Shown here piece after piece: positions 392-43,989 of a stretch of 43,989 nucleotides of DNA. Every line of letters starts with the position of its first letter. Within the stretch, counting starts at the first letter, position 1. The stretch comes from a virus, in IMG/VR virus record IMGVR_UViG_3300023223_000329, positions 1 to 43,989 of that record; one strand, written 5' to 3'. Both the position numbers and the translations under genes were made by a program. The notes under the pieces are model-generated. The model searched no databases and was not told the origin of the DNA. It saw only the letters and a list, made by a program, of their open reading frames with translations.

Positions 392-420
392 AACTTGTTA
401 ATGGGAGTAGAATTGAAGGT

Positions 421-469
421 GAATTTGTAGTTCTGGGGGTTGTTGATTCAGCCCCTTTGATTCAAATTC
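421..469 (+). ncRNA. Stem-loop element 1 of the structured region
   Basis: GAATTTG (421-427) pairs perfectly with CAAATTC (463-469). Inside, GGGG (435-438) can pair with CCCC (452-455). It begins 30 bases after the stop of the zinc-ribbon gene. No U-run follows the stem, so it does not look like an intrinsic terminator. Confidence 0.5.
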
Positions 470-486
470 TGCCAGACGGCTTTACT

Positions 487-558
487 AGAGCCTAGAAGTG
501 ATAAGTTGAGTATCAATCCTTCATGACAAAACTCATTTTATCAAATTCCTAGACCTCT
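487..558 (+). ncRNA. Stem-loop element 2 of the structured region
   Basis: TGATAAGTTGAGT (499-511) pairs with ACTCATTTTATCA (531-543) at 12 of 13 positions including one G-U. The helix is extended outward by CTAG (492-495) with CTAG (549-552) and AGAG (487-490) with CTCT (555-558). The apical loop is 19 nt. Confidence 0.55.
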
Positions 559-566
559 TCATAGCC

Positions 567-714
567 CAGATTGATTTTGTGGTGGTATTGGTGTGTAGCT
601 CAATGTAAGCGCGGTCTAATAGCCGCCACCCGGCAAAGGTAGGTAGAGCAGCTCCGGCAGGGGTTGGTTGCTGGTTCGAGTCCAGCCACGCAATGCCCCT
701 TCAAATTCAATCTG
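567..714 (+). ncRNA. tRNA-like structure on a long closing helix
   Basis: The outer helix is 567-579 with 702-714 (12 of 13 pairs). It continues as GG (581-582) with CC (698-699), GGTATTG (584-590) with CAATGCC (691-697) and, after a bulged G, TGTG (592-595) with CACG (687-690). Then come TA, a D-like stem GCTC (598-601) with GAGC (646-649), and a T-arm GCTGG-TTCGAGT-CCAGC (670-686) with a canonical T-loop. The D-loop holds a roughly 36-nt insertion with its own hairpin (611-626). The anticodon-like stem (651-664) has only a 4-nt loop, so it cannot decode. This is a tRNA mimic or a degenerate tRNA inside a larger RNA. Confidence 0.65.
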
Positions 715-723
715 TAGTTTGGC

Positions 724-868
724 GCAGTTAGTGTTGTTTAGTGTGTGTGTTGAACCGCGAAAGTGGCTCCATGCCGAAGGATGAAATGCGGGACTGATCA
801 CCCGATATATCTAGACAACTGGGACTTGGGCGTGCCCAGCAGCACACACTCTTAACAATATTAACTGC
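724..868 (+). ncRNA. Long-helix structured RNA element with GNRA-capped hairpin
   Basis: Bases 724-752 pair with 840-868: 27 of 29 positions form Watson-Crick or G-U pairs, with only two U-U mismatches. The enclosed 87 nt hold a CCGC-GAAA-GTGG hairpin with a GNRA tetraloop (755-766), a CGGG/CCCG hairpin (789-804) and TGGG/CCCA (827-838). A helix this long with several internal hairpins is very unlikely by chance in a genome with such dense coding. Confidence 0.7.
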
Positions 869-964
869 CCGTAACGTGTATAAACAAAAACGGCACCGGA
901 TGTTGCGTAGACGGAGCTTTATTCAGACCCCTTAAGACCGGGGGCTAAAACCAGTTATGAGAGC

Positions 965-4755: not shown

Positions 4756-4932
4756 ATGCCATCTACAGACAAGTATACAGGATTGATCAAGATTAAGGGC
4801 TGGAAGGTCAAAGAGGCACTAGAGCATTGGGGAAGGGGGTACGACTGGTATCACCGGAACTGTAACGGCACCGAAGCACAGCAAAACAGATTGACTGATA
4901 TGTGCAAGGGCTTAGAGGAGAGGGGAGCATGA
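4756..4932 (+). CDS. Small basic protein (58 aa)
   Basis: Begins MPSTDKYTGLIKIKGWKVKE, charged and probably mainly helical. No good Shine-Dalgarno precedes the ATG, but the reading frame ends in an ATGA overlap with the next gene, which has a strong GAGGAGAGGGGA site inside this one, a usual coupling arrangement in this genome. No family recognised. Confidence 0.5.
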   Translation: MPSTDKYTGLIKIKGWKVKEALEHWGRGYDWYHRNCNGTEAQQNRLTDMCKGLEERGA

Positions 4933-5108
4933 GTACCGAAAGAGTGTTTGAAATTATAACTATTACGGTTCTGTGCGCTATAGGAGCATTGGCCGCAATT
5001 GGCGGGATCATGGCTCTATTTGCCGAAATGGGTTGGTGGGTAGTGGTATATATCCCGGTGGGATTTATTGTCGTTTCTACAATTATGAAAGGCTCAAGCA
5101 GCCACTAG
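4929..5108 (+). CDS. Two-span small membrane protein (59 aa)
   Basis: Starts at the ATG of an ATGA overlap, behind GAGGAGAGGGGA. Hydrophobic segments at residues about 8-31 and 36-52, with a short GSSSH tail. Likely an inner-membrane protein; function unknown. The genome carries at least ten such very small membrane proteins. Confidence 0.65.
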   Translation: MSTERVFEIITITVLCAIGALAAIGGIMALFAEMGWWVVVYIPVGFIVVSTIMKGSSSH

Positions 5109-5118
5109 GAGATAATAT

Positions 5119-5676
5119 ATGAAATGCGCCAGTACTTATTGTGATGATAGCACAGTTGGAGCCTTGATTTGTCCGGCGTGCACACTTAATGCGCTCAAAG
5201 GCCATCAAGTATATGCCAAGAAAGCTGGAGGATCGGTTGCCGAGGAAAGGGCAGAGTTATTTGCTTGGACAGGATTCTATCTCACCCAGACTACGCTAAA
5301 AACATGCTTGAGTGCGAAAGAAACTTCGAGGCTGCCTGCTTGGCTGCTAGGGCAATGGAGGAGACATAAGATGGGGTACGCAATTCCTAATTACACAGAT
5401 GAAGAAAAAGAAAGAGCTAAAGCCACGCTTAATCTTGGATGCCAACTGATCGGAGTTATGTATGGAGGCCAGCTTCATGCGGATATCTGTAACCGTGTAG
5501 CAAGTGGCGAAGAGGTAAGCAGGAAAGAGTTACAAGAGTTGTTTGATTCCGAAGAGTGGAAGGCCGCAACGGACATCATGGCTCAAGCCAGTGTATCGGC
5601 AGTGAATTGGACACTGGGAATAAGCGGCGTTGTCGTATTTGTGGTAGTCGTACTGATGTCATATTTTGCTCAATAG
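5119..5676 (+). CDS. Zinc-ribbon protein with C-terminal membrane anchor (185 aa)
   Basis: The N terminus has two cysteine pairs (C-x4-C and CPAC), the middle is soluble and charged (about residues 90-150), and the last 25 residues are a hydrophobic span (VVVFVVVVLMSYF), so it is likely tail-anchored. AGGAGA precedes the ATG at a good distance. No family recognised. It is followed directly by a structured RNA element. Confidence 0.65.
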   Translation: MKCASTYCDDSTVGALICPACTLNALKGHQVYAKKAGGSVAEERAELFAWTGFYLTQTTLKTCLSAKETSRLPAWLLGQWRRHKMGYAIPNYTDEEKERAKATLNLGCQLIGVMYGGQLHADICNRVASGEEVSRKELQELFDSEEWKAATDIMAQASVSAVNWTLGISGVVVFVVVVLMSYFAQ

Positions 5677-5681
5677 TGATT

Positions 5682-5806
5682 AGTGAAGTTGGTGCTAGTT
5701 CGAGATTTCGTTAGCAGATGCCTGAACTTGATGAAAGGGACCCAAAGGACCCTCTGACCGCCGTCTAGTCAAGACCTCAGCCATGCTGGCTAGCATCAAC
5801 CTCACT
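5682..5806 (+). ncRNA. Rod-like structured RNA element (about 125 nt)
   Basis: Closing helix: AGTGA (5682-5686) with TCACT (5802-5806), one mismatch, then GTTGGTGCTAG (5688-5698) with CTAGCATCAAC (5790-5800), 11 pairs including one G-U. Inside, AGCA/TGCT, CTGA/TCAG and CTTGA/TCAAG stack in order, capped by an AGGG/CCCT hairpin. The helices nest without conflict, which argues strongly for a real fold. The bases lie between two genes and contain no open frame. Confidence 0.65.
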
Positions 5807-5850
5807 ACTTATTAACATCTTCAGTGAATGAACAACAAAGAGCTAATAAC

Positions 5851-6105
5851 ATGAGTGAACTAAACAAAGAGCGAGTAACCCCAACGTATATTCGATCTAT
5901 AGCCGATACGCAGGTGACTCAACACGGGTGGTTGATGCTATTGGCAGAGGAAATCGAAACTCTCACCAAGGACAAGGCAGAGCTGGTAGAAGTGTTAATT
6001 GATTTAGCTAGAGGCCAACTGCAAGTGCCAGATTATGAAAATTATGTCGTTTCTAGATGTGTCCAAATGATAGCCAAGCACATCACCCAAAAGGAGCCAT
6101 CATGA
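5851..6105 (+). CDS. Small soluble protein (84 aa)
   Basis: The ATG at 5851 (MSELNKERVTPTYIRSIAD) has AAAGAG at good distance; an earlier in-frame ATG at 5824 lacks a ribosome site. Mostly helical, slightly acidic. The stop overlaps the next start (ATGA). No recognisable family. Confidence 0.65.
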   Translation: MSELNKERVTPTYIRSIADTQVTQHGWLMLLAEEIETLTKDKAELVEVLIDLARGQLQVPDYENYVVSRCVQMIAKHITQKEPS

Positions 6106-6377
6106 ACCCCAATGAGGCAAAGGACTTAGAAGAACTAATTGAGTTTTTGGAAATCTACTCGATCCAGAAGCTGCCAAGCCTAGCAACTGCGGCACGTACA
6201 GCCAAATTATTGCGCTCCCTCCAATCCAAAGTACTGATAGATAAACACCATGCAATATCGGCGCTGGCTGAACTTCGGGCGAGACAAATGCTTTTGAGCG
6301 ATGAAGGCCGGTCCATTGACGAACTGGACGAAGCGATGACGCACATATTCACTGCCATCCAAAAGGTGAAGACATGA
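6102..6377 (+). CDS. Small helical protein (91 aa)
   Basis: Begins at an ATGA overlap, with AAAAGGAG upstream (MNPNEAKDLEELIEFLEIYS). The sequence is dominated by amphipathic helices rich in Leu, Ala and Glu, with no cysteine. The stop overlaps the next start by four bases, making a coupled three-gene set (5851, 6102, 6374). Function unknown. Confidence 0.65.
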   Translation: MNPNEAKDLEELIEFLEIYSIQKLPSLATAARTAKLLRSLQSKVLIDKHHAISALAELRARQMLLSDEGRSIDELDEAMTHIFTAIQKVKT

Positions 6378-6679
6378 GCACTTGCTTTAAACACAATTGT
6401 ACTCTCGACACTGCCGGGACTTGCCAATACTGTGAAGCCGAGCGGAATCAATATCAATCGCTTCCAAATCAAGAGCCTCAATGCAAGCCATACGACTCAA
6501 GAGAGCAACTAGACCGCATAGAGAAGATGCTCAACGACGTTCTATCAAGGCCGGTATATTTTGGCATAGACTGGGCTAAGGGAGAGGACACTTACACAGA
6601 GCAGACACTCAACTGCACCTGTGGAACCTCAGCGGTTTGTCCCCTTCACCAAGATCCCAACCTTGAGAGAGCAGGATAA
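6374..6679 (+). CDS. Cysteine-rich small protein (101 aa)
   Basis: Cysteines fall in pairs: C-x3-C then CQYC near the N terminus, and CTC plus a later C near the C terminus, with a helical centre (YDSREQLDRIEKML). Consistent with one or two zinc sites. Last gene of the block before the late-region promoter candidate. No family recognised. Confidence 0.65.
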   Translation: MSTCFKHNCTLDTAGTCQYCEAERNQYQSLPNQEPQCKPYDSREQLDRIEKMLNDVLSRPVYFGIDWAKGEDTYTEQTLNCTCGTSAVCPLHQDPNLERAG

Positions 6680-39140: not shown

Positions 39141-39324
39141 GCCGCATTATTGGTGACGCACAGAATAGCAGCAGCCATAAATGCGAGGTTACTGGAAGTT
39201 AGCAGTATCAACACGAAGTAAGACTCTCGGCGCTTGAGACCGGCGCAGAAAACCATTTAAGCGGACACAGATAAGGTAAGTTGTCAGGGCGTTCACGGAT
39301 TGATAAGCCTGATGTGGATAGTAG
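39141..39324. other. Gene-free spacer, part of a 297-base gap
   Basis: No open frame worth calling. Short local pairings exist (GCGC/GCGC near 39238-39246; TCAGG at 39284-39288 with CCTGA at 39308-39312), weaker than the element that follows at 39325-39399. It may be the 5' part of the same RNA. Confidence 0.4.
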
Positions 39325-39399
39325 AGAGATACTGGAGCAGCAGTAAGTAAAGCAGATCTAGGGCAGGTGTCCCCAAGGTCTATATGATGAGTATTGTCT
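39325..39399 (+). ncRNA. Duplicated covarying RNA element, copy 2
   Basis: Outer stem AGA-ATACT (39325-39333, one G unpaired) with AGTAT-TCT (39390-39399, TG unpaired). The inner hairpin 39354-39381 is AGATCT with AGGTCT, an A-A mismatch, GGG with CCC, and an 8-nt loop: same lengths and layout as 1248-1275. The inner triplet changes from AGG/CCT to GGG/CCC, keeping pairing. It lies 57 bases upstream of the Lar-like gene. Confidence 0.65.
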
Positions 39400-39437
39400 A
39401 GATTCTTACAATCAAAAGCAGTTAATAGGAGATCGTC

Positions 39438-39659
39438 ATGTCAGATATTATAAAATGTTGCCCTTTTTGTGGGAGCAAATGTGTTGAGGTAGCGCGAACC
39501 AATAAGGATGCTTGCTGGATTTGTTGCGCTGATTGTGGGAGCGAATCAAACAGCCACAAAACTAGAGAGGGGGCAATTAAGATTTGGAATGAAAGACATG
39601 AAGATAATGGAAGCCCCTCGCTAATCGTGGATGATATGGACAAAGATTACCCTAACTAA
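39438..39659 (+). CDS. Lar-like restriction alleviation zinc-ribbon protein (73 aa)
   Basis: Matches the Lar family layout: KCCPFCGSKCVEV, then ACWICCADCGSES and REGAIKIWNERHE (the conserved A-xxx-WN-xR end). Rac prophage Lar modulates type I restriction to protect unmodified DNA; many phage members are untested. Preceded by the second copy of the duplicated RNA element and by AATAGGAGATCGTC as ribosome site. Confidence 0.85.
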   Translation: MSDIIKCCPFCGSKCVEVARTNKDACWICCADCGSESNSHKTREGAIKIWNERHEDNGSPSLIVDDMDKDYPN

Positions 39660-43583: not shown

Positions 43584-43915
43584 GAATCAATATTAAACCC
43601 CTGTCGGTCAATAGAGCATGGCAAGGCAAGCGGTATAAAACGCCGTCTTACAAGAGTTTCGAGAAGAATGCCTTTATGTTACTGCCAATACCGTCGAAGG
43701 TTGATATACCAGATCGGGATCTGAAGGTTTATTACGAATTTGGCTTTTCATCAAAGCTGGCAGATTACGATAATCCTATTAAGCCATTTCAAGACATACT
43801 GCAAAGGAGATACGGCTTTAACGATTCCAGGATTGTCGAGGCTCACATTAAGAAAGTCGTGGTCAAGAAAGGCGAAGAGTATATTGAATGGCGAATTGAG
43901 GCGCTTAACCCTTGA
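43580..43915 (+). CDS. rusA: RusA-type Holliday junction resolvase (111 aa)
   Basis: Cuts four-way junctions made by recombination. The RusA core is present: LADYDNPIKPFQDILQRRYG (D-x2-N-x2-K-x3-D catalytic pattern) followed by FNDSRIVEAHIKKV. The N terminus is NIKPLSVNRAWQG. The length is typical. With the Rad52-type protein and SSB-like protein on the other arm it completes a recombination set. The C-terminal part is repeated at bases 1-126. Confidence 0.92.
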   Translation: MRINIKPLSVNRAWQGKRYKTPSYKSFEKNAFMLLPIPSKVDIPDRDLKVYYEFGFSSKLADYDNPIKPFQDILQRRYGFNDSRIVEAHIKKVVVKKGEEYIEWRIEALNP

Positions 43916-43989
43916 TAACCGTGTTCATGGGTGTGGAAACTAAAAGAGGCTAAATATGAAAGAAGCAATCAGATGTATAAATTGCAGCC
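43790..43989. repeat. Terminal overlap, right copy
   Basis: Matches bases 1-200 with differences at 43859 (G versus T) and 43950 (C versus T). The first changes a RusA residue (V versus L); the second lies six bases before the start codon of the next gene, between its ribosome site and the ATG. Confidence 0.9.
43956..43989 (+). CDS. Zinc-ribbon protein, N-terminal fragment (cut by window end)
   Basis: First 11 codons of the gene that is complete at 167-391, repeated through the terminal overlap. It includes the first CINC cysteine pair. Not a separate gene. Confidence 0.9.
   Translation, partial: MKEAIRCINCS

Follow-up and report, generated by a model that had tools for sequence, protein, structure and literature searches.

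The largest gene-free stretch of the phage genome analysed here (the window, 43,989 nt) most likely gives rise to a folded RNA of large size that contains a tRNA-shaped part without an anticodon, as modelled by folding and covariance. By sequence comparison, this tRNA-like domain apparently belongs to a recurrent, patchily distributed and undescribed family of phage tRNA mimics. The region was read, with a probability of about 0.5, as a phage non-coding RNA of approximately 450-570 nt, encoded on the + strand, that carries a tRNA-elbow mimic of this family and is predicted to act as a docking scaffold. The odds lie slightly in favour of the broader statement that phages carry widespread, unrecognised tRNA-elbow mimics lacking an anticodon, built in this case into a new class of large ornate RNA where the early genes meet the late ones.

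Genome context

The genome is approximately 43.8 kb in length, and the first 200 bases of the record are repeated at 43790-43989 with two differences, from which it follows that the genome is complete or circularly permuted. Gaps were defined as stretches overlapped by no + strand ORF of at least 45 aa and no - strand ORF of at least 80 aa. By this definition, positions 392-964 (573 nt) are the largest gene-free gap and the runner-up, at 39141-39437, has 297 nt, in agreement with the first-pass annotation, which had described the region as the only gap above 300 bases. The sole ORF within 392-964 is a 61-aa frame on the - strand, for which no Pfam match was obtained at an E-value of 0.01. Around the circle, the region is preceded by genes for a DNA methyltransferase, NinB, a protein of unknown function, a RusA-like resolvase, and a 74-aa Cys-rich ORF, and is followed by a 64-aa Cys-rich ORF, HNH genes, TerS (7276), TerL (9273), and the portal and capsid genes. 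The RNA region thus lies where the early genes for recombination (NinB, RusA) give way to those for packaging. Relatives of the flanking 74-aa and 64-aa proteins were searched for and none was found. A promoter-like site on the + strand (TTGTAA-16-TAGAAT, 386-413), located just 5' of the structured part, was identified by a consensus scan at chance level. The second-largest gap adjoins a gene at 39438-39656 whose product matches Lar (restriction alleviation; Pfam PF14354).

Secondary structure of the region

The + strand of 392-964 folded at -203.9 kcal/mol, compared with -170.2 +/- 7.1 kcal/mol in dinucleotide shuffles (z -4.74, 0/100), and the - strand gave a z of -2.39. The four helical domains proposed in the first-pass annotation were present on the + strand across 417-872, which was delimited as the structured non-coding RNA region on the basis of the z values of separately folded pieces, the z of the whole region, and the absence of an ORF. 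Domain 1 (421-469) is a hairpin, 421-432/459-469, with an inner stem at 435-442/449-456 (pair probability 0.94-0.99; z -4.7 for 417-470 folded alone), and domain 2 (471-566) consists of helices 492-497/546-552 and 499-511/531-543 (z -3.2 for 470-568). Domain 3 (567-714) is a composite of helices 567-579/702-714 and 581-595/687-699 (pair probabilities 0.98 and 0.85) with a tRNA-like cap (z -3.8 for 567-713 folded alone). Domain 4 (724-868) contains the 27-pair helix that had also been reported at first pass, 724-752/840-868 (mean pair probability 0.96), together with an inner stem at 770-779/825-834 (z -5.3 for 717-872 folded alone). The remaining tail (873-964), which reaches the next start codon, is unstructured (z +0.5), and no intrinsic terminator was seen in it; the structured RNA therefore comprises about 455 nt and ends near 872. 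Thus, the proposal of an ornate RNA of about 570 nt held with respect to a large folded non-coding structure on the + strand, but not with respect to structure over the whole 573 nt. The longest helix in 60 shuffles had a mean of 15 pairs and a maximum of 28, and because one shuffle of the 60 contained a 28-pair helix, the improbability lies in the sum of the domains and not in the 27-pair helix alone.

Anatomy of the tRNA-like domain

The mimic was placed at 589-694 on the + strand by covariance model R2 (see below), with its acceptor at 589-595/687-693, D-stem at 598-601/646-649, and T-arm at 670-686. Direct reading of the sequence gave a 7-nt acceptor with a G-A mismatch or bulge, U8-A9, a GCTC/GAGC D-stem, a 6-nt variable loop, and a perfect T-arm (GCTGG-TTCGAGT-CCAGC). 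The D-loop (602-645) is expanded to 44 nt and, as judged from fold and sequence, holds one hairpin at 611-615/622-626 and a weaker, GGCA-bearing mini-hairpin (ACC-CGGCAAA-GGT) at 628-630/638-640; it still closes with the canonical GG-TA. The anticodon-like arm (652-663) reads CTCC-GGCA-GGGG and is closed by a tetraloop, with no anticodon, and all four of its pairs covary in the family. In the minimum-energy fold of the window, the 3' strand of the D-stem is paired with this arm instead. Both helices of domain 3 lead into the tRNA-like fold, which thus caps a helix.

The features that make the tRNA corner (U8, A14, D-stem, G18-G19, and T-loop) are kept, and the decoding part (the anticodon) and the amino-acid-accepting part (a free CCA end) are missing. 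Since a tetraloop occupies the place of the anticodon, the mimic cannot decode; charging is probably impossible as well, given that the acceptor merges into a longer helix and has no CCA end. With the corner kept and both the anticodon and the CCA end lost, an elbow mimic is the economical reading. No tRNA was found in the window by ARAGORN, and the Rfam tRNA model had no match in 300-1050 at E-values up to 10; because the corner is kept and the anticodon discarded, standard annotation with these tools leaves such loci blank.

Elements of the same build in other phages

A spaced pattern derived from the mimic of the window (AGCTCA, 22-52 nt, GTAGAGC, 12-42 nt, GGTTCRANYCC) was scanned over IMG/VR and gave at least 103 distinct matches. 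Among the matches listed, 68 of 103 were ordinary tRNAs with a fortuitous upstream AGCTCA, and 33 had an expanded D-loop together with a pairing acceptor; at least 13 of these 33 listed elements, which stem from phages of different kinds, had an anticodon-arm loop of no more than 4 nt, often GGCA (L374 was included on account of its GCAA loop). The common build combines the acceptor, D-stem, G18-G19, and T-arm of a tRNA with a D-loop enlarged by 22-50 nt and an anticodon arm closed by a tetraloop. GGCA is found in both the D-loop hairpin and the short arm in L332, L335, L340, L342, L375, and L439, and the window fits this trait, with GGCA in both its tetraloop-closed arm and its D-loop mini-hairpin. 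The acceptor is extended into a long helix in two other elements (approximately 21 bp in L375 and at least 16 bp in L332), as it is, with a bulge, in the window. The flanks of the mimic are unstructured in L360, L374, and L375, and the large RNA may accordingly be something that this phage has built around an element of more general occurrence. Nearly all members are overlooked by ARAGORN and Rfam, and no anticodon-less or expanded-D-loop phage tRNA-like RNA was found in the open-licence literature; because the same mimic goes unrecognised in many unrelated phages, it probably represents an overlooked family of viral tRNA look-alikes. Large, tRNA-rich phages (L344, L347, L364, L368, L404, L425, and similar ones) were also seen to carry tRNAs with D-loop inserts of 22-31 nt and an otherwise near-normal anticodon arm.

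Covariance model and covariation

Model R2 was built from alignment A4, which comprised the elements of nine other phages with the window left out; another alignment, A3, in which the acceptor had been broken up by MAFFT, was set aside. R2 recovered 589-694 of the window at 71.9 bits (E 1.3e-17), the next-best site in the genome scoring 10.6 bits, and the tRNA-like domain noted at first pass was thereby borne out independently. The nine elements had been fetched with letters of the window, so that the shared D-stem and T-loop letters are partly due to selection, and the scores of ordinary tRNAs were therefore checked as a control. These reached at most 56.2 bits over phage loci and at most 53.4 bits in a whole 6.5-Mb bacterial genome, and pattern-matching elements with an ordinary anticodon loop also scored below the window (e.g., L344, 51.6 bits). 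A tenth member with GGCA loops in the D-loop hairpin and short arm, L439 (64.7 bits), was found by R2, having been missed by the pattern because the end of its D-loop does not fit.

In the alignment of ten sequences, 22 of 33 pairs were changed on both sides, and the covariation score was 0.487 versus 0.182 in shuffled alignments (0/500) and at most 0.194 with partners slid. Covariation was concentrated in the acceptor helix (11/12 pairs) and the anticodon-like arm (4/4), neither of which forms part of the search pattern. The D-stem pairs never vary and so make no contribution. Pairing in the D-loop hairpins reaches only about 63% over the alignment, which means that their exact form differs between members or that they are misaligned. 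The acceptor and the D-, short anticodon-like, and T-arms were recovered by RNAalifold unaided. Covariation among homologues had been named in the first-pass annotation as a check on the whole RNA; it was strong in the tRNA-like domain, but for the other three domains no homologues were detected. A search of 398 genomes from the phylum of the Rhizobiales genome G001 returned one match, on a phage-like contig; scoring covered the best nine candidates of each genome, so that the apparent rarity in genomes holds only roughly.

Relatives of the phage and other tRNA-bearing regions

By DNA similarity against 50,697 phage records, the whole RNA gave only short matches, mostly to the T-arms of phage tRNAs, and no homologue of it was found in terminase relatives or RusA-bearing loci. 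None was found for domains 1, 2, and 4, whose structure therefore rests on a single sequence. The RNA is absent from L010 and L070, the closest phages in which the corresponding part of the genome is known. Among the terminase relatives searched, many of them fragments, none had a family member above the range of ordinary tRNAs; the mimic is thus not inherited along the terminase lineage and either moves or is often lost. A sliding fold scan upstream of TerL failed to flag even the window and was not used. In the relative L224 (capsid 46%, RusA 57%), a large stretch without genes, in which tRNA-like pieces occur, likewise comes directly after RusA. In L010, a phage RtcB RNA ligase gene (Pfam 426 bits) is followed by a small gene and then by a bare tRNA 3' end (T-arm and CCA) over 4860-6464, and an Rfam int-alpA RNA (RF02996) barely over the cut-off lies upstream of the RtcB gene at 4766-4835.

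Unannotated regions of 500-900 nt, in which short conserved modules are mixed with broken or repeated tRNA pieces, were seen in relatives and other phages, including L031 (2660-3270), L046 (590-1480), L063 (3240-3850), L067 (4280-4850), and L224 (3410-4360), and also in L217, L227, L223, L108, L220, and others. Their modules include ATTCGCCGAAAGGCA, GCCCATT..AGTGGGCA, and GCCGCATGAAAGGGCGGC, and the pattern ATTCGCCGAAAGGCAMA occurred in 34 viral contigs, a few of them perhaps by chance. Several regions end in a nearly identical 3' module of 146 nt (CAGCGCGCATGTTCGCAGTAATCC...), located at 3659-3804 in L063, 4155-4300 in L224, and 2728-2873 in L227, and present also in L212 and L217. On the - strand of L208, at approximately 1430-1560, the order of parts has the look of a circularly permuted tRNA (T-arm, acceptor strands with a TTCG tetraloop, then D-arm). 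Rfam recovered no model other than tRNA over the modular regions, which may constitute a second overlooked class of phage RNA. The motif ATTCGCCGAAAGGCA of related phages is real and widespread, but it is absent from the window, and a partial likeness to it in the D-loop of the window (CGCC-ACCC-GGCAAA) was kept out of the evidence. Unannotated gaps matching the alphaproteobacterial version of the modular regions were found in two cultured phages, Rhizobium phage RHph_N3_2 (L314, 2202-2893) and Pseudanabaena phage Pam5 (L315, near 2001-2056), which would allow experiments.

Proposed role and alternative explanations

In the proposed mechanism, the RNA would be transcribed as a separate, stable + strand molecule in which an extended helix is capped by the tRNA-shaped fold, with acceptor, D-stem, G18-G19, and T-loop kept and two small hairpins in the D-loop. 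The elbow would offer a docking site to a protein, of host or phage origin, that recognises this corner of tRNA; candidate partners are an enzyme that processes or modifies tRNAs, a nuclease, or, by analogy with Y RNA, PNPase. The rest of the RNA may serve as a scaffold that titrates or redirects this partner during infection. A recurrent family of DNA-phage RNAs with the tRNA corner but no anticodon would give a defined entry point to the tRNA-binding factor that phages must hold or mislead. The covariance model makes the family searchable at once, so that what was a single odd gap becomes a class open to testing.

Two other readings concern the RNA as a whole. The entire 450-570 nt could be a new giant ornate RNA that assembles into an RNA-only particle in the manner of GOLLD and ROOL, the tRNA-like part being one module; its size, four domains, phage origin, and tRNA-like segment fit that type (PMC12286853), but neither model matches, the whole RNA stands without a homologue, and in some members of the family (L360, L374, and L375) the mimic lies between unstructured flanks, which leaves this reading rather unlikely. 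It is unlikely, too, that the RNA acts in cis as the leader of the late (packaging) operon and governs processing, termination, or antitermination of the transcript that continues into HNH, TerS, and TerL. Its position between RusA and the packaging genes would suit such a leader, as would the chance-level promoter-like site at 386-413, the lack of a terminator after it, the RNA region at the same post-RusA place in L224, and the RNA regions of Rhizobium phages, which adjoin a NusG-like antiterminator. The scattered positions of other members argue against a purely cis role, since L340 has its element downstream of TerL and L399 has it antisense between the TerL and portal genes; moreover, RNase P acts poorly on acceptors that are extended as double strands.

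Three further readings start from the tRNA-like part. A decoy that uses a cheap tRNA corner to shield the tRNAs of phage or host from defence proteins that target tRNA would explain why the recognition features of the corner are kept and the anticodon dropped, and a patchy distribution is expected of counter-defence genes; however, most known defences that cleave tRNA recognise their target by the anticodon loop, a part that the mimic lacks, and this reading was considered quite improbable. Very improbable is a functionless, decayed phage tRNA gene or array lying beside unrelated hairpins: phage tRNA genes do often decay, and the neighbouring phage L010 has its bare tRNA 3' end, but independent phages share identical departures from tRNA (a swollen D-loop and GGCA tetraloops), and the covarying pairs of acceptor and arm had already made decay unlikely. 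The suggestion that the piece is a phage attachment site copying the 3' end of a host tRNA gene is barely credible. tRNA 3' ends serve as attP cores, and the T-arm with the 3' acceptor strand resembles them, but a complete cloverleaf without an anticodon, in which both tRNA halves are present and the acceptor pairs, contradicts it, and no integrase was found among the proteins scanned.

Comparison with known RNAs

Non-decoding tRNA mimicry is known from a few RNAs, such as tmRNA, Y RNA, and the 3' ends of plant viruses. No Rfam 15 family matched the window at gathering scores, and the MIR5998, SNORD79, rli22, and astro_FSE matches in the region were rejected as far below theirs. GOLLD and ROOL are phage-encoded, ornate RNAs of several hundred nucleotides located near tRNAs or tRNA-like segments (PMC12286853). 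The RNA of the window is likewise phage-encoded, ornate, several hundred nucleotides long, and furnished with a tRNA-like segment, but no conserved core was found in it, and its mimic occurs elsewhere without a structured surround. The first-pass suggestion of a diverged GOLLD or ROOL member was not supported, as neither model matched the window at the gathering score or 300-1050 at E-values up to 10.

Relative to ordinary phage tRNAs, the mimics share the letters of the acceptor, D-stem, and T-arm as well as G18-G19, but differ in having a D-loop of 22-50 nt, no 7-nt anticodon loop, and in several cases an extended acceptor, and they are mostly unseen by ARAGORN. tmRNA resembles the RNA of the window in placing a tRNA-shaped fold without an anticodon inside a longer RNA; the window, however, has no Rfam or ARAGORN tmRNA match (in 300-1050 the Rfam model stayed silent even at an E-value of 10) and no recognised tag frame, and it has a full GCTC/GAGC D-stem and no CCA end.

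The docking-scaffold reading finds its closest parallel in bacterial Y RNA (YrlA), a non-decoding RNA that carries a tRNA-like domain on a stem and tethers PNPase to Rsr (PMC8394870). As in the window, tRNA-like D, T, and acceptor parts are grafted onto a helix formed by the RNA's own ends. The Rfam Y RNA models had no match in the window (E-values up to 10) or in nine family loci (gathering score), no TROVE/Rsr gene was found in the phage or eight other records, outside which a host-encoded protein would lie, and the phage has no RtcB gene; Rsr/TROVE and RtcB were therefore rejected as partners encoded by this phage. YrlA is 90-150 nt in length and binds Rsr and PNPase, whereas the D-loop of the window is swollen by two hairpins and its arm ends in a GGCA tetraloop. 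The best reading is that the mimic family is built like YrlA but is not a member of it, and by analogy Y RNA may serve as the nearest working model for how the mimic acts.
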